This document shows, piece after piece, positions 688 through 62,810 of a stretch of 64,000 bases of DNA. The translations under genes and the position numbers were made by a program. The notes below the pieces were generated by a model. It was not told where the DNA came from and did not search any database. It saw only the letters and a list, made by a program, of their open reading frames with translations. The DNA is from Tomocerus qinae (lineage: Eukaryota > Arthropoda > Collembola > Entomobryomorpha > Tomoceridae), in contig CM034546.1 in assembly GCA_020055645.1 (NCBI GenBank), positions 9,920,001 through 9,984,000 on the forward strand, in the 5' to 3' direction. Numbering within the stretch: position 1 is the stretch's first letter; every line of letters starts with the position of its first letter.

Positions 688-1314
688 ATGTCAAACTTCA
701 TAAAAGTAACCGAAGTCCTTACTCAGTTGAAGATGTCACATCATGTACAAAAGTTTCAAGGTAAAAAAATATCCCTCAAACCATTAATAAATGTAAATCC
801 TTAGATTATGACTATTATAATTTCATAGTTTTTATTGTATTTTGTAAAATTGTTTGTAGATATTTTATCTAGTTTAGGCCACCTTCAAAGGCAATAATGG
901 TTAACTTTGGTCATAAAATTTAGTGAAAACATTGTTTTTTGTAATATAATGTTTTTTTGTCGGTTTTTAGCGTAGAGTAGATACTCAATTCTATGTATTT
1001 ATTTCTGACAAACTCATGCTCAATATCTAAATGAATTTTATAGCAATCTAAATAAATATTTGTAGATCGATTTTGCAGTAATGAACTAGGAATTAAAAAT
1101 AGTAAATCTAAAAAGTTCATGCAGCCGTGTAAATAGTGCTCATTAAAATCAAGTTTGGAACTCTAATAGCATTTAAATTTTGATAATTTCAGAGGCTGAA
1201 ATCGATGACGAATGTTTCCCACTTACAACAGAAAACGATTTTAAAGAACTAGGGCTTACTATTGGTGAACGAAAAAGGCTGGTCCAATACTTAAAGAGTT
1301 TGAATTCAACCCAG
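688..1314 (+). other. SAM-domain exons 1 and 2 of the NACHT gene
   Basis: Exon 1 (688-760) encodes MSNFIKVTEVLTQLKMSHHV and a few more residues. It ends one base into a codon that exon 2 (1193-1314) completes as Glu. The joined segment has the five-helix SAM pattern, with the usual acidic L-T-E-x-D-F-K-E-L-G-L stretch and a basic last helix. Exon 2 ends in phase 0 at 1314, and exon 3 opens at 1577 with Val-Ile-Asp. These exons are too short to stand out as open frames by themselves. Confidence 0.8.
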
Positions 1315-4300
1315 GTTGTTTAATTTTTACAATTTACTACTTTATTGATTTAGGACGATATATTTTCATCTCACAGTCAGTCTACATTTTATTCATTTGC
1401 ACCGTTACCTATACACTACTACACATTTAAATTCACCAAAGTGACATTTTAAAACTTGAAAACCTAATTTTAGTTTTAAAAAAGTGCAAAAATATTTATA
1501 TTTGGAAAATAACGCTTAATTTAATATCTTATAACCATTCCATAATAGTTATTAATTTCATTTTTCTATAAATTAGGTTATCGACAGTATTCGCATGCAA
1601 GAAATTGAGAACCAGCTCATTGAATTTTATAAGCATGAAGATCGGACGAATTTTCGGAGAATGGATAAAACGAAACTAAGTCTTGATGCATGCTACGTTA
1701 ATCTAGCCGTGGTTCCAATGGATATTTACAACGTTCTTGAAAACAAAGAGCATAAAACATTTGAAAGCGATTTCATACGACCGAGGAGCAGCGAAGAATT
1801 GATTTCTGACAAAAGCAACATTATAAAACTAAGAAATTTATTTGACCAGAGTGACAACAATCGTACAAAATTCGAATCAAATTGGGAGAATGTGAAACAG
1901 AAACGTATTTTGATATTCGGAAGGGCAGGAGTTGGGAAAACGACTTTGTGCAAGAAAATTGTATACAGTTACTACAAGGACAAAGTGTGGAAAGATTATT
2001 TTCACCGCGTGATTTGGCTAACTCTGCGTGATTTTAAACAAATCGGGGAACCAAACGGGAAATTTCACACAGAACTTTCTGACATTTACGCACAGCAATT
2101 TATATTGAACAAAAAAGACGGAGAAATTTTTTCGGGCATTATAAAAGGCGAGGAAAACGACGGGAAAAAGATTCTGTACATCTTAGATGGCTGGGACGAA
2201 ATTCAAGAACTGCTATTAAATGATAGCCACATTAGGCACGTTTTATTGGAGGAACTGCTAAAGAAACCGTTTCTAATTCTAACATCTCGACCATATACAA
2301 TGGAATTGGAATCGTCTTATTTTGATCAAGTTCTTGAAACTGTTGGCTTCACAAAAAAGAATATTTTTAGATACATAAAAAATGTAATTCCCGAAGATAT
2401 TCCCAACCAAAACAAAATTTTGAATTTTATTAATTCCCACAACGTCATTTCAGGAATTGCAAGCATTCCCATTCAATTGGACATGCTTTGCTACTTGTGC
2501 ACCAATATTGACGACGTAGAAGAATGTTTACACACAGAAACTGTCACAATGACGAAATTGTACGACGTATTGGTAAAAAAGATGCTTGACATGAATCAAA
2601 TACGCAAAGGTCGCCAAACCTTTGAATGGATCAGTTACAATTACAAAAGTGCGTTCAGCAGGTTTAAAGAGGGAGAAAGTTGCCAAGATATTTCGCCAGT
2701 TGTCTTCCTCGCTGAAATTGCTTATGAAGGTCTTCTATCAAGTAGAATCGAATTCAATGACAAGTTTTTTCCTACCGCAAAAAGCTATTCCATGGAAATT
2801 AGAAATCAAATGAAGGATTCGTATTTTCTTAACTGTCTCAACCCTTCTGAAATTGCTATCGAAAAAAAGTCGTATACATTCATCCATTTGACATTTCAAG
2901 AATTCATGGCTGCTCTGTATATTGCTAACCACTTAAAACAAGAACAAATCCTTCAAGTTATCTCGGAAAATAAATACAATCCGCGATTTCAAATTGTTTG
3001 GTCTTTTGTTGCTGGCCTGATTGATAATTCGCAAGAGCTTAATATTTTCTTTGACTATTTAGAAAGATCTCCTATCGATATAACCGGCATACCTCATCAG
3101 CTCTTGATGCTCAATTGTATCAACGAATGTGGCAATTTGATGGACCAGAAGAGAATGGACAGAATTGTGGAGGAATTATGGAACTGGCTTAAGTTAGTTT
3201 GGTTTTTAATTCATATTAATATACTAAATGCTCTAAATACCTTTTTACAACCCTTAATTTAATACTTTTAATAATTTTGAAAATTGTATTTAAATTTAAA
3301 CCATTTTTTACCTTATTATTGTTTTAGGAGTGAAAATTGGCATTTGGCAGATCCCCAACTACCAAAAAAACTTTATGAAAACATGTTGACGTCAATTTTT
3401 ACTTTTGATGCTGAGACAGTGACTGTTTCAGAATCATTTCTTGGATACACGAAATGGCTCCCGGATTCCATAATTCTAAAACTGATCGACACCCTTTTTC
3501 AAGAGGAATTCCATCAAACAACTGTCAATCCTAATCCAGCGATGATAAAAAGTGTACAGAAAATTTTATCGTGCAAATTTCGTTTCATCAGTGTCAAAGT
3601 TGCAAATCAAATCGATTCATTTCTTAAAGAAGAGGTTTTTAAATCTAAAAGAAGGAAAGATTCGTTGCTTCGTTGTGAGTTTTTAATTAATCTGCTGCCC
3701 GATTGTATTCTGAAAGACGATACGTGCAATACGCTATTAGAACTGTTTGATGCCATGAGGGTGGAATTCGAAAGACCTGTAAGTCGCTATGTGCAAGTGG
3801 CTATTTCGACCGTGCTTGGCAATGGATATTCTATCTTCTTCAAGGATAAACTGGTGGAGAAACTTGTCGACATGCTGCATGTAAATAACGTCCCTCGTAT
3901 TCGTAAACGTTCATTATATTGCCTTTGGAGAATAAAAAAGTTACCGGTGCCAACTCAAGAAATTCTTGCAGATTATTTCGGAACAATTTCTATGGAATTG
4001 TTGAATAATTGTTTGCAAAATCAGAAAGACCTGAGTCCTTATGTAATTGAAAAAATGCTCTACCATCTGACAACAAGCAAAAATCATATGGATAAAATAC
4101 GGGCATTGAGAGTTTTAGGAACACGAAAAAATTTAAATGAAGAAACGCTGCAGTTAATTTTTGGCGTTTTCCAAAGTGGCAATTCAGAATTGAAAAGAAC
4201 TATTCTAAGGGCTTTTGGCCGCCTAAATGAAATGTTTGATTCAATTGCAAATCAATTGTTGGACGAATTTGCCAATCGAGCCCAAGATAAAGTGGAATGT

Positions 4301-6490
4301 AAACATTTTTTCTCCCTCTGCTGTGTACTCCAAAATCCAAAAGTCTCACAACAAGTCATTGAGAGAATTGGAAATCTTTTCAACGTTTATGATCAGGAAG
4401 ATAATTCCAAACTAGTCTTACATGTTTTAAATATGTTAAAATTCAAACAGTTCCCTGACAATATTATTGACAATTTATACGCTCGGATGAAAAGGAAACT
4501 CGACAATACTTCAGAACTCAAAGAAATTCTTACCTGCTTGGAATATCAATGTGTATTTTGCGACGACCCGGACTTCCCATTTTTTCTAATTGATTTAGCG
4601 ATGAAGGATGATATGCTTACTAAACCAATTGTCAATATTTTCCGACAGCATCAACATTTATTCTGGATGGACAATGTCATCACTAAGATGGAAGACTCAG
4701 TATCTAATCAAAATAATATTTGTTCCAAGAATGTTCTTCAGGCTTTAGCGCAATGTAAAAATGTACCCCCAGGTTTACTTTTAAATACGATACGTCGCCT
4801 AATTAATCCTGAACAGTTGTCTTTAGAGGAATCTCACAGATATACGGACATAAAAATATTGCGTACTTTACTACAAAATCAATCGAAGCTTCCGGAAAAT
4901 GTTTTGAAACATTTATTTGATGCAAGCAATTGGAAGTGTCTAGAGTATTACTCCAAATACGTATCTAGACTTGTACATCATCTGCCACTGGAGGAAATAC
5001 TCAACAACTTAAATGAACTCAATTGGAAAAATGTATTTGACAATATTATAGTTACCAGAATGAAAGCCAGCTATTTCCCTATCCCCGTAATACAAATAAT
5101 TGAAAAGAAGAATGCGCTGTCAATTTTTACTCCTGTAAGTAAGGAACCGATGGAAATACAACACCTAGAATTATGGCACGTAATGAAGATGTTGAAAAGT
5201 GTTAAAAGTCTTCCACTCAGACCAGATTTTCTAACCCTGTATTTAATGTTCCACACAAGACAAGAAAGTCAGCTTTACATCGAAAAATTTTCCACGGCCT
5301 TCGAATATCAAAGAGGAAATGTGTTGGTGTACACCAATAATGTAGGAAAATATCTCAGACTCCATTTGCATACAGATGAACCCACAGAAGAAGATTTCAA
5401 AATATTATTTGGGGAAATCAAATATCAGCTCACTTCAAATGAAATCGAAAATAATGATTTTGTTCATCTTGATCTAAGGAACAATTATTTAGATGATAGC
5501 AGAATCCCACTGTTGAAGGAAACAATTAAAAACACAGGAAAGACTATTTTCACCTTGATACTATCAGACCAGCAAATCACATGCAACAAGGATGGCCTTC
5601 GTTCATTGTTGGACAAATCTTTCTGCAGAGCAATCGGATTAAAATATTTGTATGTTGATCGGAATCATATTTACTTGGCGAAGCAAGATTTCTGTGTTAC
5701 TTTATCCTATACGGATTCGTTACTTAGTCAATCAGGTCTAGAAATATTGGACTTGTCTGGAAATTTTATTCCCGAAGGGAGACTGTTTACACTAGACGAA
5801 AATATAGTTGCTGACAAGAACATTCTCACAAGCAATGGAATTCCTGAAAAGGATCTTGAGAGAAATGTAACATTTATCAAAAATTCTGGAACCTTAAACT
5901 CCAGCGATACGGGCGAATTGGGTTTCATTCCAATTCATACTTCGTTTTACAAGATTAAAGGCGACTTGAAAGAATGTAGAATTAGTAAATACACAGGTTG
6001 TATTATCTTAGGACATAAAAAATTGAAAGGATTATCGAAACATGCCTTTTTTGGAATCGATTGGGTCCCACCGACACAATCCGAAGGCTATGGACAAAGA
6101 CAACTCATAAAATCGGAATTGGTCTTAGCTGATCTTAATGACGATCATGTAAAAATCATAATTGTGCAGATGTCCCCACAAGAATTTGTTCGACAGTTTC
6201 AAAATGAGAAAGTGAAAGTCAAAGCTGTGATATTCGTGCCAACTGAAAAGATACGGGAATGTCTCGACTGGATTTATACCAGCAGAGACATAGCAGATAA
6301 ATATTCTTACAAGCTCCTAGCCTCCTTAAAAAGTAGTAGCCGTCATAAACTAAATTGCATTACTTGGGCAGATATTATGCTTGAAAAATGTGGAATTAAA
6401 GTTGACTCAATGAAACAAAATTACCCTCTTCTATCCCTCGTACCAAATCTAAATGCTCAAATCAACTTTGATTCGAATTCTACCATTTAA
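688..6490 (+). CDS. SAM-NACHT-HEAT/LRR STAND ATPase (NLR-like), 4 exons
   Basis: I predict exons 688-760, 1193-1314, 1577-3192 and 3328-6490. All have GT-AG borders and agreeing phases (1, 0, 2), giving 1,657 residues. Residues 1-65 read as a SAM domain (core FKELGLTIGERKRLVQYLK). The NACHT ATPase follows: Walker A GRAGVGKTT at about 180-188, Walker B ILYILDGWDE at about 264-273, a sensor-like LTSRPY at about 300-305, and the downstream GFTKKNIFRYI helix typical of NACHT proteins. About 690-1180 is an array of helical HEAT/ARM-like pairs. About 1315-1415 carries leucine-rich repeats (HLDLRNNYL, LEILDLSGN). The last 200 residues are unrecognised. Known NACHT proteins are cytoplasmic switches that oligomerise on ligand binding, and SAM domains recruit partners; immune or cell-death signalling here is inference. 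The start is the first ATG that opens the SAM frame. The exon structure is strong; the function is not proven. Confidence 0.85.
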
Positions 6491-6689
6491 AAATACAGTG
6501 ATAATTATTTGTCAAATATTTTAAACTGCTTCGCCAGTTAAGAATTAAGAACATAATATCAATTAATAGGAATAAAATTGAGCTTAAAAGAATCGCTACG
6601 ATAGTAATTACCAAATAAGACTTATTTTGACAAATCTTCAGATATAGCTCACTCACTATACCATTTACGTACATTAAGTACTTTAGTAA

Positions 6690-6695
6690 AATAAA
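6690..6695 (+). terminator. poly(A) signal of the NACHT gene
   Basis: A canonical AATAAA lies 200 bases after the stop codon at 6490 and is the first such signal in the 3' flank. Confidence 0.5.
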
Positions 6696-6724
6696 TTTAT
6701 TTAAGCACTTACACTATGTATTGA

Positions 6725-7005
6725 TCTTATCCCATTTTTAATAGTTATGGATTATACATTTTATGACATCATTTAACCATTTTTAATGCATTATACATTT
6801 TATGACTTATCACTCATTTATATTATCCCATTTGTAATAGTCAGGTAGTGTACATTTTTATGACATATCATTATTTAATTATTTTGTCCCATTTTTAATA
6901 GCTGTGCGTCAAACATTTCATGACATAGACATATCATTATCCCGTTTATAATAGTTATGTAGTGTACCTTATTATAACATATCATTGGATTTGATTATTC
7001 CATAT
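6725..7005. repeat. degenerate tandem repeat, 4-5 units of about 60-75 bp
   Basis: Successive units share the core ATCCCATTTTTAATAGTTAT followed by a TACATTTTATGACATATCAT-like block. The copies have diverged in length and sequence, so the array looks old. It is non-coding. Confidence 0.6.
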
Positions 7006-12000: not shown

Positions 12001-12090
12001 ACTTTGGGCAACAGACATATACCTTTCCACATTTAATGAAATATTCCTTGTCTATCTTTACATTATTAAAATAATTTTGGCTTTGACAAA

Positions 12091-14043
12091 ATGCATATGG
12101 AAATTTATTTTATGATTCCTTTTATTTCATTTTTATTAACTGCTATTGTCATAAACAATGTCCAATGTTTTCATTTGCCATTTTATAGTAATTGTGATTT
12201 TAACATGGTCACTTTTGACCAATCCGAATGGCAGACAGACTTTATATTGTCCAACCAAAATGGCCAACCCTGGACCTTAGCAACACCCAATTATGCCATA
12301 ACTCGTCAACGTTATCATTGGGAACATCCACTGGATCAGTCAAGGAATTTGTGCAGTGTAAATGTTTTAATGGATCCATACTCTACGTTGGAAAATCTCG
12401 TTAAATATTTCGGAAAGAAAATAAATCGTCGGGATTCAAGATTTATAATTGTCATCAAAGATGAATTGAAGTGGATGAATCCAAAATGGGAATCAAGACT
12501 TATTGAAGATTTGGTGGCTCCTCTCTTCATATTCGGAATGACAGTAGGGAACAAATATTCAGTTTACATTCCAATTCTCTACAATCCAGACAGTGAGGGT
12601 TTATACCTTGGTCATATCAAAGACAGATTATCCGAGGAAGAATGGGAAAAGTTTTGGATTACTTTAAATGGTAATCTTCATGGCATTGAGGTTGGTGGTT
12701 CTTATGGCGAATTTTCATTCAGTGGATCTATAAAAATGCCAAAATGTCGGAAAACAATCTACTCAACTATTAAAATGGGATATAACTGTTTAAATTCAGT
12801 TAGAGCTGTTGAGTTGATGGCAGAGAGATTAAACTTCACTGCTGTTTATGGAAGGAGAGTAGAAAATCTAAAAGAACATAAACTATATGGACAAATTGAC
12901 ATGCTTTCAAGTAAAGTGAAAACTTATAATATAGGTTGGCATGAAACTCTTTTCATTGAATACTTTAATGAGTTGATTCCATATTACTGTGAGGCGAATC
13001 ATCGTTTCCTCGACACTCCTTTGACAGTTCTGATTCAAAATACTTATGATGATTATTGCTGGTGGCTGATATTCTCGCTAATCCCGATTTCATTTTATGT
13101 TTTGAGCTGCAGAATTACTTCTTTGTACAAGAGAATGCAAATGATTCTCGTATCCACAATAGCTGTCCTTTTAAATCAGGATGTTTCCAATAAAGGGAGA
13201 AACATTTTGTACCTGGTAATTGTGTCGATGGGATTTGTACTTGCTACTCAATATGAAACGCGGATAACAAGCGAGATTATTGCACCACCAGACAGAAAAC
13301 AATTTGTGGACTTTAAAGATCTCGTCGAAAATGGATACAAGTTATTGTTGCAAAAAGACAGGATTTGGAATTTGGGCGAACAGAGAATTGAATTCTTTGA
13401 AAAATATAAAATTCGGGATAGATATAACAAAAGTGTCTACAGATTCGATTGGGAAATCAATGCATCATCTAATGACAGAGAAATGGGTTACATGGGAGTT
13501 ACATGGAAGTTGTTGACCAACTATTTAGTGAAAATATTTGCTGTAATTGGGAAACCGAGAGGTGAATACCTCGTTCCCTTAATAGCATCCAAAATATCTT
13601 CAAATGGTGTCTGCATGACAGTAAAAGAAACAGACCTTGCTGATCCTCATTCTTATAAATTCTCAAATGGCTACCGTTACAAATTCCTTTTATATTTTCA
13701 GACCATGCAAGAAAGAGGCTTCTTAAAATATTTTATGCAACAGCACGAATTTAAAAGAGATTTGGGATACATAATTTCCCATTCAAAACTGAAGCACAAA
13801 CTGCGTCAGGCAGTGCCCATAAGCCTTTCGATGAAGATTCACACCATTTTCTTAGTTTGTGGATACATCTTGATTGGGTCTTTCTTCACACTCTTCCTAG
13901 AAAGGGTTTGGCATAATACTTTGCAAGTTCGTGTCTTGGGGTTTTTAGAAAGACTGAAGATGGTCACTACGAAAATTGAAGATCCAAATCGTGTATTTCC
14001 AGTTGCAATGGAAGCTTTCTGCGAATTGCGTAAGATGTTTTAA
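12091..14043 (+). CDS. divergent ionotropic receptor 1 (IR-like), intronless
   Basis: The gene encodes 650 residues in one exon. A signal peptide (about 1-27) precedes an extracellular region, then iGluR-type topology: M1 at about 322-342 (YCWWLIFSLIPISFYVL), a pore-loop segment at about 350-368, M3 at about 371-393 ending in the TQYETRITSEIIAPP motif in the position of the iGluR SYTANLAA gate, a second ligand-binding lobe, and M4 at about 586-606 (IFLVCGYILIGSFFTLFLE). IRs are cation channels of chemosensory neurons, and divergent members usually work as tuning subunits with co-receptors. The ATG sits in the TTTGACAAAATGC context shared with two paralogues. Ligand unknown. Confidence 0.88.
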   Translation: MHMEIYFMIPFISFLLTAIVINNVQCFHLPFYSNCDFNMVTFDQSEWQTDFILSNQNGQPWTLATPNYAITRQRYHWEHPLDQSRNLCSVNVLMDPYSTLENLVKYFGKKINRRDSRFIIVIKDELKWMNPKWESRLIEDLVAPLFIFGMTVGNKYSVYIPILYNPDSEGLYLGHIKDRLSEEEWEKFWITLNGNLHGIEVGGSYGEFSFSGSIKMPKCRKTIYSTIKMGYNCLNSVRAVELMAERLNFTAVYGRRVENLKEHKLYGQIDMLSSKVKTYNIGWHETLFIEYFNELIPYYCEANHRFLDTPLTVLIQNTYDDYCWWLIFSLIPISFYVLSCRITSLYKRMQMILVSTIAVLLNQDVSNKGRNILYLVIVSMGFVLATQYETRITSEIIAPPDRKQFVDFKDLVENGYKLLLQKDRIWNLGEQRIEFFEKYKIRDRYNKSVYRFDWEINASSNDREMGYMGVTWKLLTNYLVKIFAVIGKPRGEYLVPLIASKISSNGVCMTVKETDLADPHSYKFSNGYRYKFLLYFQTMQERGFLKYFMQQHEFKRDLGYIISHSKLKHKLRQAVPISLSMKIHTIFLVCGYILIGSFFTLFLERVWHNTLQVRVLGFLERLKMVTTKIEDPNRVFPVAMEAFCELRKMF

Positions 14044-33024: not shown

Positions 33025-34848
33025 CTACCATACGTTTTCTAGAAGCAGTTTGAAGAAAGATCCAAGCAAGAAGTACCCACAAACGAAGAAAATAGTATGA
33101 ATATTCATTGTGAGACTTATAGGGACACCCTTAGATTCCTTACTATACTTCAGTTTTGCGTGAGATATTATATACGGTAAATCATATCTAAAATCGTGTT
33201 GCTGCTTAAAATATTTCAAAAATCCACTTTCTTGCATTGATTGAAAATAATATGGAAATTTATGACGGTAACAATATTTAAACTGGTAAGACATTGGAAT
33301 AGCGACATCTGTTTCCTTTACAGTCATGCAAACTCCGTCAGAAGATATTTTAGTAGTTATTAATGCCACAGTAAAATCACTCCTGTCTTTCTGAATGACA
33401 GAGAATATTTTCATTGAAAAGTTTGTCAACAATTTCCAAGTGAATGTATTTATTTCCATATTCATTTCTTCGGGTGTTGCACTGATTTGCCAGTCAAATC
33501 TATATACCAAGGAATTCATCTTGTCCTGCATTTTATATTTTTCAAAAAATTCGGTTCTGTCTTCATACCAATTTCGTTTTGAATCTTTCTGCAACAAAAC
33601 CTTAAAATCATTTTCCACGAGATCTTTAAAGTCCGCAAATTTTTTTCTGTCTGGTGGTGAAATAATCTCGCTTGTTATCCACGTTTCATATAGAATGGCT
33701 ATTATAAATCCCATGGAAACTATCACCAAGTACAAAATGTTCTTCCCTTTATTGGAAACATCCTGATTTAGAAGAACTGCTAGGGTAGATTGAAGAACAA
33801 ACTGCAAATTCTTGTATAATGGAGTAATTTTGAAGCCCAAAATATAAAATGAAATGGGGAACAGCGAGAATATCAGCCACCAGCAATAATCATCAAAAGT
33901 ATTTTGAATCAGAACTGTTAGAGGAGTGTCGAGGAAACGAGGATTGGCTTCACAGTAATATGGAGTCAACTCATCATAGTATTCAATGAAAACTGTTTGA
34001 TACCAATATATTTTATGTGGTATATAATTTGATAACATCGATATAGATCCACATCGTCGCTGGTGTTTTTTTAGATTTTCGTATGCCGTAGCATATACAG
34101 CAGTGAAGTTCAATTTTTCAGCCAACAATTCAATAGCTTTTACCGTATTCTGACAATTATAATTCACCGTCATCGTTGAGTAAATTGTTTTCCTGCATTG
34201 TGGCATTTCGGTAGGTCCAGTGTAATGAAATTCTCCCTCAAAACAACCAATTTTCGTACCCCAAAGATTGCCATTTAAAGCAATCCAAACCTTTTCCCAA
34301 TCTTCTTCGGATTTTCTTGTTTTAATCGGATGAAAGGTTACAGCTTCACCATTCTGCTTGTAGAGAATCGTCGTGTAAACCGAATATTCCTTTTCCCTTT
34401 TCATTGCCAATATAAAAAGAGGAGCCACCAATTCTTTAATAAAGTATGCTTGCCACTTTGAATCCATTTTTTTCACTTTGTCTTTGATAATGATTATGAA
34501 TCTCGAATTGCGACGATTTACTTCTTTTCCAAAGTACTTGACAGGATACTCTGATTTGGGTTTTGGCTCCATTAGAATATTCACAGAGCACAGATTTTTT
34601 GATAAATCTCGCGGATTTTCTCTATCACGACCAAAACGACTTTTGTTATATTTTTGTCCAGCCAATGTCCAGGGTTGTCCATTTTGATTAGACAGCATAA
34701 ACTCTGTCTGCCACTTGGATGGACGAAAAGTGATAATGTTAAAGTCACAATTACTATAAAATGACAAATTTCGAAAACTTTGTACGTTCTTGATGACTAT
34801 GATTACAATTAAAATCAAAAAGATGACACAATAGTACGTAGAAAACAT
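33025..34848 (-). CDS. divergent ionotropic receptor 2 (IR-like), intronless
   Basis: This 607-residue IR is a paralogue of the genes at 12091, 49954 and 55271, but in reverse orientation. It keeps a signal peptide (about 1-25), the ligand-binding halves, M1 (DDYCWWLIFSLFPISFYIL), a pore segment, M3 with the YETWITSEIISPP gate-like motif, and M4 (IFFVCGYFLLGSFFKLL). It ends right after M4 at ENVW, so the cytoplasmic tail of about 40-55 residues seen in the other copies is missing. Since IR function lies mainly in the parts before the tail, it may still work. It is the most diverged whole copy; reverse orientation indicates a local inversion. Confidence 0.86.
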   Translation of the reverse strand: MFSTYYCVIFLILIVIIVIKNVQSFRNLSFYSNCDFNIITFRPSKWQTEFMLSNQNGQPWTLAGQKYNKSRFGRDRENPRDLSKNLCSVNILMEPKPKSEYPVKYFGKEVNRRNSRFIIIIKDKVKKMDSKWQAYFIKELVAPLFILAMKREKEYSVYTTILYKQNGEAVTFHPIKTRKSEEDWEKVWIALNGNLWGTKIGCFEGEFHYTGPTEMPQCRKTIYSTMTVNYNCQNTVKAIELLAEKLNFTAVYATAYENLKKHQRRCGSISMLSNYIPHKIYWYQTVFIEYYDELTPYYCEANPRFLDTPLTVLIQNTFDDYCWWLIFSLFPISFYILGFKITPLYKNLQFVLQSTLAVLLNQDVSNKGKNILYLVIVSMGFIIAILYETWITSEIISPPDRKKFADFKDLVENDFKVLLQKDSKRNWYEDRTEFFEKYKMQDKMNSLVYRFDWQISATPEEMNMEINTFTWKLLTNFSMKIFSVIQKDRSDFTVALITTKISSDGVCMTVKETDVAIPMSYQFKYCYRHKFPYYFQSMQESGFLKYFKQQHDFRYDLPYIISHAKLKYSKESKGVPISLTMNIHTIFFVCGYFLLGSFFKLLLENVW

Positions 34849-35461
34849 TTTTAGATATAATCAGTTGAATTATTTTTTTGTGAAGTGGAAATTGTCACAA
34901 GTGTTGAGGTACTTTGACACAGTGTTCATGTACTTACGTATCTTGTAGCTCTGACTGATTATTTTTCTATCACTACTAATGATAATCATGTTGTTCGTGT
35001 TGCGCAGTGAAAATTTCCGTAGGTCGGTATGTTTGTTTATATCACCGTGTGTTAATTTGAGGCTCTGTCTAATGTCTAATCACTATCACTACTATTACAA
35101 AAGTCAGACACGTGACAATTCCGTTTGTATGTTTGTACTTCTGTGTTGATTTGACGTAATTCTAAAACGCAGCCAAGCACATATTAACGCACATAATGAG
35201 GCAAATTCCAACACGTTTAAAGCAGAACAATTGGTGGCACTACACAATAATTATGCACATAAAAGTTAGATTCCCAAAAAGTAAGTCAGTTTTCGATTCT
35301 GTAAAGCAAATTTTGCACCGTTTAAGGCAATGGAGCAGATTTCAAAAGACGGTTTTTGCCACAAATAGGGACGCTGCCAGGTAAACAGCAAAAATTATCA
35401 TGGAGGGTGAATGGGAATCGCGAAAATTCGTACTCTTTTTGGGAAAGTCCCAAAGGATACT
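34849..35461. other. 5' flank of IR gene 2
   Basis: Upstream region of the minus-strand IR gene, AT-rich. I see no strong TATA element and no other gene. Confidence 0.3.
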
Positions 35462-47957: not shown

Positions 47958-49904
47958 GATATTAATTTTACAATAATGTTTTGGCCAACAAATTTTCACA
48001 ATTTCTTCTTCCACCAAAAACCTTTTTTAATATTTCTGCCATTATTTTAAGTTCACAAGTATATATGTAAGCTGCGAACCCTAATTTCGTTAAATTATGT
48101 ATGTGGTCAGCTTTCGTGTCTAACCAAGCTACGTGCTTGTGTAAAGTGTAAGCTATGCTTAATATCTTTTACCTACTGTAAAAACATTGAACAGTTCTAA
48201 TATTGGTGATTCTAATACTAAAATATCAGAGATATATTGTATTGGTAGTGGTATATGTTATTAAACTGTATTCACTTTACGAATCATCATTACCTACAAT
48301 ATTGGAAGTAGTATGCCTAGAAAAACAAATTGGGGCCAACAAAGTTCCTCGTCCCTTAGTGACACCGTTTTAGCAAAAACACACTTAAATATTTGATATG
48401 ACCATGGCAATAGATAAGAGAAACATGAAAGCTCAAAAACAATAGGAAGGAAATATGAAGAAGTCTTATTTGTGAAGAGATAGCGGACAGTTTATTAAAT
48501 CGAGAAATTATTATTAATATTAAAATGGTAGTTCCATCATAATAATTTAGTCATCTTTGATCAAGTAATGCAAGTCTCTAATCTTAAACAACTGTCACTC
48601 AACTGTTAAAGCATACTTAATAATATAAATTGATTGTTTAATTTTAACATTTTGTCGATCTGTGTTCTGTTCTTATCCTTAATAGTAGATAAGAGTATTT
48701 GTTAATGCGGTAGATTATCAACCATAAAAGTTTAGTTCCAAAACGCATCAAACAACTTGCGAATCGTTATAAAAAGAACACCTGCTTGAGTTTACTTTAA
48801 AAAATACTAAAATGAAAGAGAGAGAAATTATGTATACATGTTTCCTGACCTGTTTTGTTTGGGTGGGATGGTTCAGGTATCAAATATCTAGGCTACATTC
48901 GTCTCGTCATTAGTAGCGTCAATAACGCGTCACGACACGAAGTTATGTATATATTTTCATGCACAAATACTTATATCACAAATACTTACAAATAATAGTA
49001 TGTCGGTGATCTGATGATGTAAGATTGGTTTAATCATCAAATTCTTCAACCTTTATATTATTATTTGGAATAACATATCTTATTCCATTACAAATATTTA
49101 AAATTCAATAATTCCTTGGCCAATAACTTTTTTACATAATTTCTTCCTTCACTAAAAACCTTTTTTAATATTACTGCCTAATCTGCCATCGTTGGAAGTC
49201 CGCAAATAAGTATATACGTAATACGTAAGCTGTTCATCCTAATTTCGCTAAATTATGCATGTAGCCAACTTTCTTGCCACCCGAGCGACCTGTGTTTGCG
49301 TAAGCTATGCTTAATATCTTTTATGTACTGGAAACACATTGTCACAGTCCTAATATTCGTAATTCTAATTAAATGTCAGTGATATTAGTAGCGTTATTAT
49401 CATTATTCTGTATTCACTTTACGAATAATCATTGCAATGTTAGAAGGTAGAATACGAAGAGAAACAAATTGAGGCCAGCAAAGTTCTTTGTCTCTCAGTG
49501 ACACCGTTTCAAACAAAACATGCTTAAATATTTCATATGACTATGACATGTAGATAAGAGAAATGAGACAGCCCAAAACCATCCGAAGAAATTCTTACTG
49601 CGATGAGGATAATGAGGAAGGCTTATACATGTGTTAAGAGATAACGGACAGTTTATTGAGTCAAGGCATTATAAGGAATATTATGTAAGTGGTTCCATCA
49701 TAATATTTCAGATATATTTGGTCAGGCAATCTAATGCTTTCATCATAAACTGCTCTCACTCGAAACTGCTAAAGCATATTTATTATTATAAATTGACGGT
49801 TTAATTTTATAAGATTTTATAGATCTTGATAATGTCCTGACTTTTAATTTTATACAATTAAAATATCTATACGAAATCTTTTCCCCACACCGACAATTCA
49901 GTTC
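47958..49904 (+). repeat. two tandem copies of the IR-upstream block
   Basis: About 48000-48640 and 49080-49810 share CTTTCTTG/CTTTCGTG CC-TAACCAAG-like segments, TAAGCTATGCTTAATATCTTTTA, GAGGCCAGCAAAGTTC and GTTCCATCATAAT. The same block precedes IR gene 4 (53.8-54.4 kb). I see no gene in them. Confidence 0.65.
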
Positions 49905-49953
49905 TGTATATACGTATAATTTTGTGTATGCGTTGACCTTTGAATTTGACAAA

Positions 49954-51933
49954 ATGCCCATGGAAATATATTTTAATAAACGCTTTATCCCATTTTTATT
50001 AACTGTTATTGTCATCAACATCAACAATGTCCACTGTTTCCAAAGTTTGTCATTTTATAGTAATTGTGACTTTAACATGGTCACCTATTACCAATCCGAA
50101 AGGCAGACAGACTTTATACTGTCTAATCAAAATGGCCAGCCATGGACCTTGGCAACACTCTGGTATGACATATCTCGTTTCGGCCGTCATGAAGAAAATT
50201 CACGAGATCTCTCAAGAAATTTGTGCAGTGTAAATATTCTAATGGAACCAGGCCCTACTTTGGAAAAAATAGTTAAATACTTCGGAAAAGAGATGAACCG
50301 TCGGGACTCAAGATTTATAATTGTCATTAACGAGGAATTGAAGTGGAGGGATCCAAATTGGGAATCTAACCTCATTGAAAGTTTGGTTGCACCTCTCTTC
50401 ATATTTACAATGACAGAAAAGAACAAATATTCAGTTTACATTCCAAGTCTCTACAATCCAGAAAGTAAGGCTTTATCCCTTCAACGAATCAAAGACACAT
50501 TATCCGAGGAAGAATGGGAAAAGATTTGGATAACTTTAAATGGCAATCTTCATGGCATTGAGATTTGGGGTTATGATGGCCACTTTCCGTTCAATGGTCC
50601 TAGAAAAATGCCAAAATGCCGAGAGACAATCTACTCTACGATAAAAATGGATTATTATTGTAAACATTCTGTAAGAGCTGTAGAGTTGATGGCTGAAAGA
50701 TGGAACTTCACTACAGTATATGGAAAACCATTTCATTTAAATACAGAAGCGAAACATGTACTTGGAAAGATAGGGTTGTCGTATCATATAGCGTACACTT
50801 ATAAATTCTCTTGGTACAAAAATATTTTCATTGAATTGTTTCAAGAAATGATTCCGTACTACTGTGAATCCAATCTTCGTTACCTCGACACTCCTTTGAC
50901 AGTTCTGATTCAAAATACTTTTGATAATTATTGCTGGTGTCTGCTATTCTCGCTAATCCCTATTTCATTTTATGTTTTGAGCTTCAAAATTGCTTCTTTA
51001 TACAAGAGAATGCAAATAATTCTCGTATCCACAATAGCCGTTCTTCTAAATCAGGATGTTTCTAATAAAGGAAGAAGCATTTTGTACTTGGTAATTGTGT
51101 CGATGGGATTTGTAATTGCTACTCAATATGAAACCTTGATTACAAGCGAGATTATCGCACCACCAGACAGAAAACAATTTGTGGACTTTAAAGATCTCGT
51201 GGAAAATGGATACAAGTTGTTGCTGCACAAAGACAGGATTTGGAATATGGACGAACAACAAATTGAATTCTTTGAAAAATATAAAATTTTGAAGAGTTAT
51301 AATAAAAGTATCTACAGATTCGATTGGGAATCCGATGCATCACCTGATGACAGAAAAAAAGGATTCAATAGATTTACATGGACTTTGTTGACCAACTATT
51401 TAGAGAAAGTATTTGCCGTAACGGAAAAAGAGGGAAGTGAATATATCGTGCCCTTAATACCATCCAAAGTATCTTCAGATGGAGTCTGCATGACAGTAAA
51501 AGAAACTGATCTCGCTGAATCGGTATCCTATTTATTCCAAGATTGCTACCGTGACATATTCTATTCATATACTCAGACCATGCAAGAAAAAGGCTTCTTA
51601 AAATATTTTAGAGAACAAAGCAATTATGGGAATCATTCGGGTGGTAGAATATCCCATTCAAAACGGAAGCACGACGAGTCTCAGATAGTGGCTATAAATC
51701 TTTCGATGAAGATTCACACCATTTTCTTCGTTTGTGGATACTTCTTAATTGGATCGTTCTTTACATTGTTCCTAGAAAGATTGTGGAATCATAGACTGAA
51801 TTTGCAATTACATGTTTTAAGATTTTTAAACAAACTAAAATTGGTTGTTCAAAAGAAAAGTGTAACTCGAGTATTTCCATTTGCAGCGGATGATGTTGAA
51901 TTGCGTAAGATTTTTAACAAAACATTAACATAA
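49954..51933 (+). CDS. divergent ionotropic receptor 3 (IR-like), intronless
   Basis: I choose the ATG at 49954, in the TTTGACAAAATGC context shared with IR genes 1 and 4; the frame is open 30 bases further upstream but with no ATG. The product is 659 residues: signal peptide (about 1-28), LSFYSNCDFNMVTYYQSE motif common to the family, first lobe, M1 (YCWCLLFSLIPISFYVL), pore segment, M3 with YETLITSEIIAPP, second lobe, M4 (IFFVCGYFLIGSFFTLFLE) and a tail of about 50 residues. It is the longest copy. Predicted chemosensory cation channel subunit; ligand unknown. Confidence 0.88.
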   Translation: MPMEIYFNKRFIPFLLTVIVININNVHCFQSLSFYSNCDFNMVTYYQSERQTDFILSNQNGQPWTLATLWYDISRFGRHEENSRDLSRNLCSVNILMEPGPTLEKIVKYFGKEMNRRDSRFIIVINEELKWRDPNWESNLIESLVAPLFIFTMTEKNKYSVYIPSLYNPESKALSLQRIKDTLSEEEWEKIWITLNGNLHGIEIWGYDGHFPFNGPRKMPKCRETIYSTIKMDYYCKHSVRAVELMAERWNFTTVYGKPFHLNTEAKHVLGKIGLSYHIAYTYKFSWYKNIFIELFQEMIPYYCESNLRYLDTPLTVLIQNTFDNYCWCLLFSLIPISFYVLSFKIASLYKRMQIILVSTIAVLLNQDVSNKGRSILYLVIVSMGFVIATQYETLITSEIIAPPDRKQFVDFKDLVENGYKLLLHKDRIWNMDEQQIEFFEKYKILKSYNKSIYRFDWESDASPDDRKKGFNRFTWTLLTNYLEKVFAVTEKEGSEYIVPLIPSKVSSDGVCMTVKETDLAESVSYLFQDCYRDIFYSYTQTMQEKGFLKYFREQSNYGNHSGGRISHSKRKHDESQIVAINLSMKIHTIFFVCGYFLIGSFFTLFLERLWNHRLNLQLHVLRFLNKLKLVVQKKSVTRVFPFAADDVELRKIFNKTLT

Positions 51934-55270: not shown

Positions 55271-57208
55271 ATGCATATTGATATATATTGTATGCTACTC
55301 TTTATCCTATATTTATTGACTGCTTTTGTCATCAAAAATGCTCAATGTTTTCGAAATTTGTCATTTTATAGTAATTGTGATTTTAATATGATCACGTTTG
55401 ACAAATCCGAATGGCAGACAGATTTTATACTGTCCAACTAAAATGGCCAACCCTGGACCTTGGCAGCATCCAATTATAACATCTCTCGTTTCGGTAGACA
55501 TCAAGATAATCCCCGAGACCTGTCAAGAAATTTGTGCACTGTAAATATTCTCATGGGTCCATACCCATATTACGGAAATTTAGTTGAATCCTTAGGAAAA
55601 GAAATAAATCGTCGTAATTCAAGATTTATAATTGTAACCAAATTTGACCGTTTTACGGGGACATTGATGTTTATGTATTGGAGAGAAAAATTTACTAAAG
55701 ATTTGGTGGCTCCTCTCTTCATATTTTCAATGAGAGGATGGAGCAAATATTCAGTTTACACTCTGAGTCCCGAAAAGTCAGGAGGTAAAGATTTATCCCT
55801 TTATAAAATTGAAAGTAGTTTATCAGAGGAAGAATGGGAAAAAATTTGGATTACTTTAAATGGCAATCTTCATGGCGTCTCAATTGAGGGCTCTCTTGGC
55901 TTATTTCACTATGATGATTCTATGGAAATGCCAAAATGCCGAGAAACAATCTACTCAACAATGAAAATGGGATATAACTGTCTAAACTCAGTGAGAGCTG
56001 TTGAGTTGATGGCTGAGAGATTAAACTTCACTGCAGTATATGTAAGAGCATATCAAATCAGTTATAACATATTTGGACATATCCAAATGCTTTCAAATAA
56101 ATGGAACACTTACGATGCAGACTGGCATGCAACTCTTTTCATTGAATACTTTCAAGAATACATTCCATATTACTGTGAAACCAATCCTCAATTCCTCGAC
56201 ACTCCTTTGACAGTTCTGATTCAAAATACTTTTGATGATTATTGCTGGTGGCTGCTATTCTCGTTATTCCCGATTTCATTTTATGTTTTGAGCTTCAGAA
56301 TTACTTCTATACACAAAAAATTACAAATTATTTTCGTATCCACAATAGCCGTTCTTCTAAATCAGGAAGTTTCCAATAAAGGGAGAACCATTTTGTACTT
56401 GATAATTGTGTCCATGGGATTTGTACTTTCTACTCAATATGAAACGTGGATAACTAGCGAAATTATTGCACCACCAGACAGAAAACAATTTGTGGACTTT
56501 AAAGATCTCGTGGAAAATGGATACAAGTTGTTGTTGCAGAAAGACTGGGATTCGGACCTAAACGAACAAAAAATCGAATATTTTGAGAAATATAAAATTC
56601 TGAAGAGCTATAATAAAAGTGTCTACAGATTCAATTGGCGTACAGATGCATCACTTAAAGATAGAAAAATGAATAGAAACGAATTTACATGGAAGATATT
56701 GACCAACTTTTTATTGAAAGTATTTGACGTGATGAATAAAGAGAGAAGTGAATACTTTGTGCCCTTAATACCGGCCAAAATGTCCTCAGATGGTGCCTGC
56801 ATGACTGTGAAGGAAACAGATTTGACTGATCCAATGTCTTATAGATTCCAACATTGCTACCGTTACAAATTCCATTCATATATTCAAAACATGCAAGAAA
56901 GAGGCTTCTTAAAATATTTTAAGCAACAATTTGATTTCAAAATTGATTTGGAGTATATAATATCCCATTCAAAATTGAAGCATGAAGAGTCTCAGACAAT
57001 GCCCATAAGTCTTTTGATGAAATTTCACACCGTTTTCTTCATTTGTGGATACATCTTAATTGGGTCTTTCTTTGTACTGTTCCTAGAAAGAATTTGGCAT
57101 TATACTTCGCAAAATCTAAAGATGATCACCACGAAAATTAATGTTCCAAATCGTGTATTTCCAGTTGCAATGGATGTTGTCTTTGAAATGCGTAAGATGT
57201 TTCAATAA
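55271..57208 (+). pseudogene. ionotropic receptor 4 with one in-frame stop (possible read-through gene)
   Basis: From the ATG at 55271 (TTTGACAAAATGC context) the frame runs 56 codons, meets TAA at 55439-55441, then stays open for 588 codons to 57208. The paralogues have CAA at this place, in the shared SNQNGQPWTLA motif, so one C-to-T change explains the stop. Everything else is kept: signal peptide, both lobes, M1 (YCWWLLFSLFPISFYVL), pore segment, M3 with YETWITSEIIAPP, M4 (VFFICGYILIGSFFVLFLE) and tail. An old pseudogene would be expected to carry more damage. In Drosophila, some IR genes with premature stops make full receptors by neuron-specific read-through. Either a young null allele or a read-through gene is possible. 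Confidence 0.82.
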
Positions 57209-59420: not shown

Positions 59421-60440
59421 CTTATTTTAAAACAGCCTGTGAATACAACGTATAGTTTTCTATAGGTCTGTTATAAAAGTTTGCAAATGTTTCTGATTTC
59501 TTAGACCAACCTGCATATTGAAAAATTAAATCTGTCGGTACTCCTTTGGCAGCTGCTTTGGAACTAGAAGTATGTCGAAAACTGTGAGATGTAAAAACGC
59601 TAGTGTCTATATCAGCTTCTTTTAGAAGCCAAAATAACCATCTACTCAAAGTTTGAGTTGACACTGCACTATGTGGTTTAATAATGCTTAGGAACAATGA
59701 ATCATCTTTCCTAAATTCTATGGTACGTTTCAGGTGTGCAAACAGACAGCTTACAACGCATAGTTTACTATTTTCTAGGTAGGGTGGAAGAATCAAACAT
59801 GGTTGGACTGAACTTGCTTTAGAAGTCTTAATCATATCTTTTATATGAACTTTTACTACGTCACCGAAGCTAATATTGGGTATTTTAATAAAAGATAGAG
59901 TTTGAACTCTTTGTGCTGTGATTAATGCCAATAATCCAATTAGTTTCAAAGAAAGTTGTCTTAGATTTAGCAAGTCGTTTGAAGGCCAAGAGTTGAAAAC
60001 ATCCAAAATTTTGTCAGCGTTCCAAATATAAGAGTTTTTTGGCTGAGGTATATTTAATCTATATATACCCTTCAAATGTCTTGCTACTAAAGGATGTTGG
60101 CCTATTTTCAAACCGTCTATAGGATTAAGTAAACTGGATAAAGCTGACCTGGCTGAATTTATCGAGGAATACCCTAAGTCTTGCTCGTGAAGAACAGTTA
60201 GAAATGATAATTGCTAGTTTTTTAGTTTTTAAATTGCTTGACAGTGGGTCTAAATTTCTTTGACTGCAATACTGGAACCTCTTTTTATATACAGACTCGT
60301 ATTGGTTCCATGTTGATTGAGAACATGAAGCGTATAAAAGTTTTACTACATTTTCTGGGTAGCCTTGATTTTCTAGACTTTCCCGGATAAGATTGCGGCT
60401 GCAAGGTGCAAATCTGAGTGGAGAGGGTGCGGTCTGCAAT
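59420..60440 (-). mobile_element. tyrosine-recombinase part of the DIRS-type element
   Basis: The region shows the tyrosine-recombinase pattern: an Arg in ITAQRVQTLS, HSFRHTSSS (H-x-x-R box), YAGWSKKSETFANFYNR with the late Tyr candidate. This type of recombinase integrates circular DNA copies of DIRS elements. Fossil copy; positions approximate. Confidence 0.78.
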
Positions 60441-61420
60441 CATAAGGAGAAACAAGCAGATCACGCTTTGGATTAAATATTAGAATTTTCGAAACAGCTA
60501 ATTCTATGAATCTTGGGTACCAAGGTTGCGATTTCCACAACGGAACGACAACAATGCCTTCTGCTTTGTCGTCGATAATTTTTCGTAAAACTCTGCCAAT
60601 TAAACAAAATGGGGGAAAGGCGTAAAACTTATCATTCCATTTGACCGTGAAAGCGTCTACGAATAATGATTTCGGATCTGGTTTCCAAGAGATAAAATGT
60701 TCACATTTTGTGGTGTGTTGACTTGCAAATAAATCCAAATTAGGCTTATAGAAAGTATTGCATATTCTATTAAATTCGATATCATTAATCATCCATTCAC
60801 TGTCGTCTAAATCTTGCCTAGACTCTTTATCTGCTAATAAATTTTTTGCACTCGATATATAGGATGCAAAAATATACAGATTTTTTGATTCGCAATACTG
60901 CCAAATGGATTTTGCAATGCTGTGCAAATGAGGATAGCGGCACCCTCCAAACTTATTTATGTATGATCTTGCTGTAGTATTATCAGTTCTAATTAATATT
61001 TGAGTATTTTGTTAGTCTTTAAATAGGGAGCGTAAGCTTTGGTCTATAGCCCTCAATTCCAATTCATTAATGCTGCAATTTTGTAATTCCATTGGCCAAT
61101 GGCCACTGGAAACTATATTATTGCATACGCATCCCCAGCCTGATAAAGAAGCATCTGTACTGATACTATATTTAAAAGAATCTTTTCTAATAAAATTTAC
61201 AGCACCGGGTGCATTTTGTATCCACCAACTAATGTCATTTTTAGCTAAACCTGAAAAAGACATTAAATTGTCAAAATCATTGGAATTTTTCATCAAATGC
61301 AGCGATTTTTCATATTCTAATTGTCTAGTATACAAACTCCCATATGGAATAGCTGGACATGCAGAAATCAGATGGCCTATTAATTTAGCAGCATTTTGTA
61401 TGGTAAACTGATCCAAAAGT
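60370..61420 (-). mobile_element. RNase H and linking region of the DIRS-type element
   Basis: STDASLSGWGCVC and NELELRAID belong to RNase H. Further on, NLDLFASQHTTKCEHFISWK and YAFPPFCLIGRVLRKI with VVPLWKSQPWYPRFIELA are phrases typical of DIRS-like polyproteins. Fossil copy; positions approximate. Confidence 0.75.
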
Positions 61421-61439
61421 TCAAATTGGTGACAGAGGG

Positions 61440-62250
61440 AAATAATTTTTGTCTTTTTGTCCTCAGGTTATTTTACGTACATATGTACTGAGTTAAAAAT
61501 AAACCCCAGGTACTTGATTTCTTGAACCGGTACTAAAACAGATTTACCCCAGTTAATAATGAAACCTAGATTTTCTAAGACAGAGGTTACAGTTTCTATT
61601 GACTTTTCACAAAGTTCAAGACCTCTATCTAATAAAAGGATGTCATCTAGAAATATGACTGAACAGTAACCTTGCTCCCTCAGAACAGTCATCACAGGCT
61701 TCATTATTTTTGTAAAAATGTAAGGAGATATGTTTAAACCAAAGGTCAAGCATGTAAATTCGTACAATTTTTGCTCACACCGAAATCTTAAATACTTTCT
61801 AGAAGCCGGATCAATGGATACTAAATAAAAGGCATCTTTGATATCTATTTTCCCAAAAAAGCAGTTTTGTATCATAAGGTTACGTACCATTCTAAAGTCC
61901 TCCATCTTAAAGTGGGGACACTCGACATATTCCTTCAGATGATTAAGATTAATTATTAATCTAAATGTACCATCAGGTTTTGATACAGGAAGTATTGATG
62001 AAATGAATTGGTCTATGCAATCGTCTACCTGAGTTATAGCATTGATTTGTTGTAACTTTTCAACAGCAGTTTGGAGGGCTGATATTTCAATTGCATTAAA
62101 ATTGCGATTTTTTGCCTCTGATTTCTGTCTAGGTTCGCGTTTAAAAGGTATTTTTACACCCTTGATACATTCAAGAACGAAAGTATCAGCTGTTATCTCT
62201 TTCCAATTAATAAAAAATTTAGATAGACGACCGGCAGAATAACTTACATT
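61440..62250 (-). mobile_element. reverse-transcriptase part of the DIRS-type element
   Basis: Motifs seen are KIDIKDAFYLVSIDP, FTCLTFGLNISPYIFTK and the catalytic box VIFLDDILLL, followed by EIKYLGFIF. These are the palm-domain blocks of DIRS/LTR-type reverse transcriptases. Fossil copy; positions approximate. Confidence 0.8.
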
Positions 62251-62299
62251 GACATTTGAGAGACGCTTAGTATTTTGGTAGGCACAGTTAGATGAACAT

Positions 62300-62810
62300 G
62301 GCTCTACTTCTCGAATCGTGGCTCTTGGCGTCGAAATTTATTGAATTGTCCGCGACTTTGTGGGCGAGATCGACGGAATTGAAAGCCGCCCCTGCGACGA
62401 GGCAGCACCCCCCAGGTTAAAGACCCGGCAGGGTAATTTCTTGTCTGATTTGTTCCTGTAGCATATGGAACAAAACGGCGTCTGTCCAATGGAGGGCGAT
62501 ATTTCCTAATGATCTTCAAATTGTTCTTGGATTCTTTCAATGCGTCAGAGAGACCATCTCCAAATAAAAATTCCGACACGGGAATCTTTGAGGCACAAAT
62601 ACCAGCATATTCAGGGTTAATTTGCTCTCTTAATTTAGATCTGCGCTGTTGATTGATGTCTCGAAATGCTCCATCCATGGCGAGCATAGATGCCCCATCC
62701 ATGGCTATTTGAACTAAATCGCGAGCCTTGTTTGCAGGAATTGAACCTGATATGTCCATCACTGTTTCTACAATTTTTGCGAACGCCGTCATTCCAGCAG
62801 GCATCGAAAA
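62300..62810 (-). mobile_element. gag-like part of the DIRS-type element
   Basis: An alpha-helical stretch with repeated AMDGA motifs is followed by an Arg-rich end (RRRGGFQFRRSRPQSRGQF), which could bind nucleic acid. Similar short gag proteins with Arg/Gly-rich ends are known from DIRS elements. Fossil copy; positions approximate. Confidence 0.6.

Follow-up and report, generated by a model that had tools for sequence, protein, structure and literature searches.

A multi-copy SAM-NACHT gene family of the NLR type in Tomocerus qinae and the kinship of its SAM domain with transposase-like proteins

Introduction

Vertebrate nucleotide-binding leucine-rich repeat receptors (NLRs), such as NLRP3 and other NACHT-LRR proteins, combine a NACHT ATPase carrying Walker A and B motifs and an HLTFQEF-type motif with leucine-rich repeats (LRRs) towards the C-terminus and an adaptor-type domain at the N-terminus. 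Here we describe a gene with a similar layout, in which the LRRs score below the Pfam cut-off and the adaptor role of the N-terminal domain is putative, in the collembolan Tomocerus qinae. It lies at positions 688–6490 of the forward strand of a 64,000-nucleotide stretch of contig CM034546.1 (assembly GCA_020055645.1; C1:9,920,001-9,984,000 in our contig numbering), hereafter referred to as the window. The predicted protein differs from vertebrate NLRs in that a SAM domain replaces CARD or PYD, a long helical array separates NACHT from a short LRR stretch, and an extra domain is present at the C-terminus.

An excerpt of one source states that NLRs were unreported for protostomes by 2012 (PMC3308963). 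SAM domains also accompany other nucleotide-binding or immune modules. In the excerpted text on SAMD9 and SAMD9L, the domains named are AlbA, Sir2-like, TPR and OB-fold (PMC5445408); none of these occurs in the list of Pfam families matching the window protein at E up to 1, which covers 25 of 27, and the NTPase of the window protein is an NLR-type NACHT instead. Fungal NLRs with SAM_Ste50p (PMC9815663) and amphioxus TIR-SAM hybrids (PMC2575513) likewise carry SAM beside NLR or TIR modules, but they belong to other lineages, and the excerpts of these two sources describe no link to transposons. Neither an arthropod SAM-NACHT protein nor a SAM-bearing CACTA element appeared among the titles and abstracts listed in our literature search. 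Prokaryotic or viral relatives of the protein were not confirmed with one query each, such searches reaching close relatives only. An NLR bearing a domain that is also present in transposases is known in plants, in the form of BED-NLRs, although there the domain is zf-BED rather than SAM and the ATPase is the plant NB-ARC.

We interpret the window gene, with moderate confidence, as a member of a multi-copy family of SAM-NACHT-(helical array)-LRR receptors of the animal NLR type, which would have obtained its SAM domain from a transposon and would operate as a STAND (signal transduction ATPase with numerous domains) switch.

Structure of the SAM-NACHT gene

Four exons (Table 1) are spliced via GT-AG introns into a coding sequence of 4,974 nucleotides, corresponding to 1,657 codons and a stop codon, with no internal stops. 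Retention of the intron between exons 2 and 3 would introduce the first stop at zero-based codon 67, and retention of the intron between exons 3 and 4 at codon 626. The chance of a run of 1,054 codons without a stop was estimated at about 2e-34, assuming that 7.1% of codons would be stops at a GC content of 35%.

The joining of the SAM exons to the NACHT exon is supported independently of RNA-seq, since all four distinct close paralogs found in the genome (L010, L014, L015/L012, and L017/L018) have the SAM exons too, bounded by corresponding splice sites. In each of them a GT donor follows the first SAM half and an AG acceptor precedes the second half at the matching place, exon 2 has the same length as in the window gene, and the exon-2 donor, the exon-3 acceptor, and the exon-3 donor have counterparts at matching places, in-phase sites alone having been sought in the comparison of these last three. 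The broken copy L018 has no exon-3 donor at the matching place. The first-pass annotation of this DNA had proposed the same four-exon model, with which both the open frame of 1,657 codons and the paralog splice sites at all three junctions agree, and the existence of a real four-exon SAM-NACHT gene is thus confirmed at the level of sequence comparison.

Domain organisation of the protein

Pfam SAM_1 matched amino acids 4–61 with a score of 30.7 bits (curated cut-off 23), and NACHT matched amino acids 175–337, encoded at positions 1904–2392, with 53.9 bits (cut-off 26.7). Both the Walker A motif (GRAGVGKTT, amino acids 180–188) and the Walker B motif (ILYILDGWDEI, amino acids 264–274), the latter with an extra acidic residue, were found, followed by LILTSRP at amino acids 298–304 and the HLTFQEF-type winged-helix motif FIHLTFQEFMAALYIA at amino acids 500–515, in exon 3. 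Such motifs characterise NACHT and the winged helix associated with it. The best solved-structure matches of the NACHT exon were NLRP3 chains (phmmer, E 3.1e-7, exon residues 110–331), while for other NLRP3 chains the best matching stretch was exon-3 residues 421–451. A match to NLRC4_HD2, representing helical domain 2, scored 15.3 bits, below the cut-off of 33.1.

The earlier description of a NACHT with intact Walker A and B, preceded by a SAM in the place of CARD or PYD, is borne out by these results, while its HEAT and LRR labels find no firm support. Repeats are visible in the LRR part, e.g., LEILDLSGNFI (with a single strict motif match), but the Pfam scores are sub-threshold both for HEAT_2 (15.6 bits on the whole protein and 18.3 on part of it, with a cut-off of 27.7) and for LRR_1 (Table 1), and the LRR part is short. 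This LRR stretch, amino acids 1330–1480, has 59–60% identity to its counterparts in L014, L010, and L017.

The solved SAM structures closest to the window SAM are those of ANKS6, BICC1, SHANK3, and ANKS3, a set that we take to include polymer-forming SAMs. The window SAM keeps the DD and G-x-R/Q-K/R stretches, which have a role in the ML/EH surfaces of polymer-forming SAMs, and a SAM of the polymer type is plausible for this protein.

The SAM-NACHT family

In the 334 Mb genome (115 contigs), 30 NACHT matches were found, all above the cut-off (PF05729), and the window together with 21 other loci was examined. A SAM-exon profile matched 7 of these 22 NACHT loci at 75–82 bits. The seven loci represent five distinct genes: the window gene, L010, L014, the pair L012 and L015 (99.7% alike), and the pair L017 and L018 (99.5% alike). 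At E up to 1, the profile gave one further match, which scored 7.8 bits and lay beyond L027 on its far side; the examined loci extend about 4–5 kb from NACHT, and a SAM exon located farther out could escape such a search. The first-pass annotation had described NACHT-type NLRs as missing or rare in well-studied insects. The window gene is not an isolated case but one of at least five distinct SAM-NACHT genes in a genome with 30 NACHT matches, which shows that genes of the NLR type can reach high numbers in this arthropod lineage.

Between L010 and L014 lie two fragments, at C1:42.57 and 42.58 Mb, with 53–59% identity to the NACHT exon and two in-frame stops each. Exon 3 of L018 is disrupted. 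The small contigs C18 and C28 contain near-copies of SAM-NACHT genes (L012, L015, L018) with differing frame breaks, which are possibly haplotigs or copy-number variation. Among the remaining NACHT genes, ankyrin repeats occur in L013, L022, and L026, and others have a short N-terminus. Close to the N-terminus of the NACHT-ankyrin frame of L026 (positions 2525–7921 of that locus, reverse strand), class 3 lipase was matched weakly, at 20.4 bits against a cut-off of 22. A second NACHT gene, L029 (1385–4942 of that locus, reverse strand; C1:9912384-9915941), lies head-to-head with the SAM-NACHT gene of the window, about 4.7 kb from its start; no SAM exon was found at L029.

The identity between the window protein and L014 is 38% in SAM, 66% in NACHT with the winged-helix domain, 35% in the helical array, 60% in the LRR stretch, and 57% in the C-terminal domain. 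Since their identities to L014 are the lowest, the helical array and SAM are the most variable parts of the window gene, with SAM diverging as fast as the array. We regard the helical array, rather than the LRR, as the candidate sensing surface. The six pairs of genes that do not include the window gene showed, in exon 3, 0.11–0.17 nonsynonymous (dN) and 0.68–0.95 synonymous (dS) substitutions per site (NG86 method), while in the SAM exons the five computable pairs without the window gene gave dN of 0.23–0.41 and dS of 0.54–1.84. Taken together, these values indicate that NACHT is under purifying selection and SAM less strictly so. For most pairs that include the window gene, dS was saturated or not computable as a measure of age.

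A SAM-bearing transposase-like family

A genome search with the SAM of L014 revealed 20 places. The matches outside the NLR genes, with 40–56% identity, belong to open frames of 374–906 amino acids, plus one of 108 amino acids, on contigs C1, C2, C5, C9, and C75. The best four of them (50–56% identity, frames of 452–860 amino acids on C1, C2, and C5) outscored the SAM exon of the window gene (42%). One of the proteins, L048, has a sub-threshold match to Transposase_21 (25.1 bits, cut-off 28.6), and another, L046, has a sub-threshold match to Plavaka (17.8 bits, cut-off 26.3) and a C2H2 finger above the cut-off; the L047 protein shows 47% identity to that of L046 along its length. The likeness to CACTA (Transposase_21) and Plavaka transposases seen in L048 and L046, respectively, is thus weak, and the family formed by L046, L047, and L048 differs from these transposases in the addition of an N-terminal SAM. 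SAM is present in subfamilies whose proteins share just 40–47% identity.

Several members of the family have near-identical copies. L046 and L077, on C5 and C2, are 100% identical over 2,624 bases, L047 and L069 share 351 bases at 99.4%, and L048 and L074 share 301 bases at 99.7%, while the body of L046 has 49 matches in the genome, many of them containing stops. We infer that L046, L047, and L048 represent a recently active DNA transposon of the CACTA/Plavaka-like type.

The exon structure of the SAM region in this family resembles that of the NLR genes. Exon 1 was located in L047 and L048 (it was not identified in L046 and L071), where it starts near a Met and, like its NLR counterpart, has a phase-1 end. 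An AG acceptor of that phase precedes the second half of SAM in all three of L046, L047, and L048, and the stretch between this acceptor and the position aligned to the donor of the NLRs measures 122 nucleotides. When joined, exons 1 and 2 pass the Pfam SAM_1 cut-off with 26.5 bits in L047 and 37.1 bits in L048. The SAM half-exon precedes the finger in the transposase-like family: at the end of SAM, three of four close subfamilies have CAG-GT (CAG-GC in L071), which is read through into the finger, and at the aligned SAM end the window gene is spliced, CAG/GT. Four more divergent exons were picked by the transposase body, and all four have an acceptor and an open exon at the right place.

Origin of the NLR SAM

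A phylogenetic tree of 32 SAM sequences was constructed, including five from NLRs, four from transposon-like genes, 21 of 26 SAM matches from elsewhere in the same genome, and two solved SAMs. The NLR and transposon SAMs form one clade with a support of 98/89, present in 98% of 200 bootstraps. Within this clade, L048 is placed outside the group comprising the NLR SAMs and those of L046, L047, and L071, with a support of 95/91 in this tree and 93/85 in an extended tree of 36 rows, and the core clade of nine rows holds at 98/92 in the latter. The NLR SAMs are therefore, as far as their sequences indicate, kin of the transposase-like SAMs of the same genome to the exclusion of other SAMs. The direction from transposon to NLR, which is favoured but not proven, is suggested by two features: SAM spans divergent transposon subfamilies but occurs in one NACHT group of those examined, and in the tree the NLR SAMs are nested within those of the close transposons. 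Capture of the NLR SAM from a transposon thus appears rather probable, and, if it took place, it would provide a concrete route for NLRs to gain new signalling modules.

A number of observations weigh against this interpretation or against the receptor family reading as a whole. The SAM trees rest on 64–66 columns, and the NLR SAMs are not monophyletic, forming one group in 11% of bootstraps with 32 rows and 24% with 36 rows. None of five divergent transposon-like SAM exons that were labelled or added joins the core clade: L078, L080, and L081 group with SAM_L067, while L068 and L079 are found among other SAMs, L068 being one of the 21 own-genome rows that was relabelled as transposon-like for its likeness to L079 (99/96) alone. 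Among the four divergent exons picked by the transposase body, L079 alone matched Pfam SAM_1, with 24.0 bits. Exon 2 of the window SAM is 39% identical to L048 and 38% identical to BICC1, ANKS6, and SAM_L064; it is nearly equidistant from them, and the signal of kinship with the transposon comes from the four paralogs. Relics of the zinc finger of the transposon, sought in intron 2 of the NLR genes, gave p values of 0.054, 0.02, 0.956, 0.172, and 0.724, a result not taken as significant. In the transposase-like family, L047 has no transposase match in Pfam, the C2H2 cut-off is passed by L046 alone of L046, L047, and L048, and no terminal repeats were found at these three loci in the sequence examined, which stops short of the element ends. 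The NACHT tree of 20 rows has all SAM genes on one side of a branch supported at just 53/93, L017/L018 have no ATG at the matching place, and SAM is under weaker constraint than NACHT.

Some of these points bear on a different history, in which a host SAM gene of the BicC/ANKS-like type was ancestral to the SAM exons of both NLRs and transposons, or in which SAM passed from an NLR to the transposon. The next-nearest SAMs in the trees are SAM_L064, BICC1, and ANKS6, the window SAM is as close to BICC1 as to the transposon, the SAMs of L046, L047, and L071 fall among those of the NLRs, and the divergent SAM-like exons of transposons remain outside the clade, all of which such a history would accommodate. 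Against it stand the exclusion of all 21 own-genome rows and both PDB SAMs from the clade of NLR and close transposon SAMs (98/89), and the occurrence of SAM in transposon subfamilies only 40–47% identical to each other, but in a single group among the NACHT genes that were examined. Moreover, L068, the sole other exon (of five partial ones) with the same phase-1 start, resembles the transposon-like L079 (99/96). We consider an origin from a host SAM gene, or a transfer in the reverse direction, to be unlikely, and capture from the transposon is retained as the preferred explanation.

Proposed mechanism

The following scheme could be proposed for the SAM-NACHT proteins. The SAM domain would derive from exons 1 and 2 of a DNA transposon that carries SAM and is still present in the genome. 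The C-terminal half of the protein, composed of the variable helical array, the short LRR stretch, and the conserved tail domain, may sense a cytosolic cue, upon which NACHT, by analogy with NLRs, would swap ADP for ATP and oligomerise. The resulting ring of clustered SAM domains could then polymerise or recruit SAM partners, as CARD and PYD do in vertebrate NLRs; recruitment by way of polymers of SAM had also been suggested in the first-pass annotation. The gene structure, the domains, the paralogy, and the kinship with transposon SAMs described above are direct observations, while we have deduced the transposon nature of the carrier family, the direction of transfer, switching by nucleotide exchange, polymerisation of SAM, and an immune role.

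The protein could also be a scaffold without an immune role, with SAM binding BicC/ANKS-type partners and NACHT functioning in development or RNA regulation. The identity of the best PDB matches of SAM (ANKS6, BICC1, and SHANK3) is in line with such a function, but the clustering of intact and broken copies at C1:42.56-42.60 Mb and the fast-changing helical array (35% identity) are more reminiscent of the birth-and-death evolution of receptors, making the scaffold function improbable. Within the receptor interpretation, one could further hypothesise that the captured SAM is an integrated bait that binds active SAM-bearing transposases, so that the NLR family senses or silences its source transposon. 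This proposal is quite speculative and we give it little credence; if true, it would make the family a receptor that monitors the cytosol for a selfish element. Finally, an annotation artefact, in which the SAM exons, never joined to NACHT by splicing, would be part of another gene or the fossil of a transposon, would fit the missing ATG of L017/L018 but is highly improbable given that the exon pair, its order, and matching splice sites recur in all four distinct paralogs.

The C-terminal domain

Downstream of the LRR stretch, the protein contains a conserved domain that was absent from the earlier reading of the gene and has no assigned name (Table 1). Eight sequences of the genome align over this domain and share 13 invariant positions, including G, C, GQR, E, N, and W. 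In this alignment, the identity to the window copy is 54–56% in two close paralogs and 20–23% in five distant cousins. A genome search with the C-terminal copy of L024 found 12 places, and since the SAM-clade copies were not among them, the presence of a shared domain in the two groups rests on tblastn and the alignment; tblastn between the SAM-clade and distant domains gave 27–28% identity over approximately 280 amino acids, with a best E of 2.3e-8.

No convincing Pfam or PDB match was found with the eight aligned members: seven Pfam families were returned with best E of 0.02–0.19, each in one to three of the eight, and two PDB chains with E of 0.71–0.77. A permuted papain-like (LRAT/NlpC-like) fold was considered, prompted by Asn-Cys in seven of the eight aligned members and a His upstream, not in one column, and is unsupported, the database matches being too weak. 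An AlphaFold2 single-sequence model of window positions 5498–6487 had a mean predicted local distance difference test score (pLDDT) of 37.5. The C-terminal domain of L029 has neither the Cys nor the nearby His present in the others.

Other features of the window and genome

The features of the window are listed in Table 1.

Table 1. Position of the SAM-NACHT gene, its parts, and other features in the window
Feature	Position	Strand	Remarks
Exon 1	688..760	+	Initiator Met and first SAM half; phase 1 end at G/GTAAAA
Exon 2	1193..1314	+	122 nucleotides; second SAM half; donor CAG/GTTGTT
Exon 3	1577..3192	+	Linker, NACHT, winged-helix motif
Exon 4	3328..6490	+	Helical array, short LRR stretch, C-terminal domain, stop
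HEAT-like helical array	3332..5386	+	Sub-threshold; 35-36% identity to L014, L010, L017
Short LRR stretch	5455..5800	+	LRR_1 19.4 bits, cut-off 20.6
Conserved C-terminal domain	5957..6487	+	Amino acids ~1481-1640
AATAAA, possible polyadenylation signal	6571..6576; another at 6690	+	Sequence match alone
Long open reading frame	12070..14043	+	One of four related frames
Long open reading frame	33025..34860	-	One of four related frames
Long open reading frame	49813..51933	+	One of four related frames
Long open reading frame	55442..57208	+	One of four related frames
DIRS-like retroelement pieces	59422..62337	-	Tyrosine recombinase 49.2 bits, reverse transcriptase 87.5 bits, Dam methylase sub-threshold

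The four related long open reading frames of the window have no Pfam match and look like divergent ionotropic-receptor genes. Elsewhere on C1, a copy of COX1 can be translated with the invertebrate mitochondrial code, and after it come sequences that we read as COX2 and ATP6; no tRNA was found beside it with ARAGORN. Five long open frames of 1,602–2,456 amino acids with condensation domains of the nonribosomal peptide synthetase type were detected at C1:108.4, 41.0, 39.0, 41.2, and 60.1 Mb (L041 and L042).

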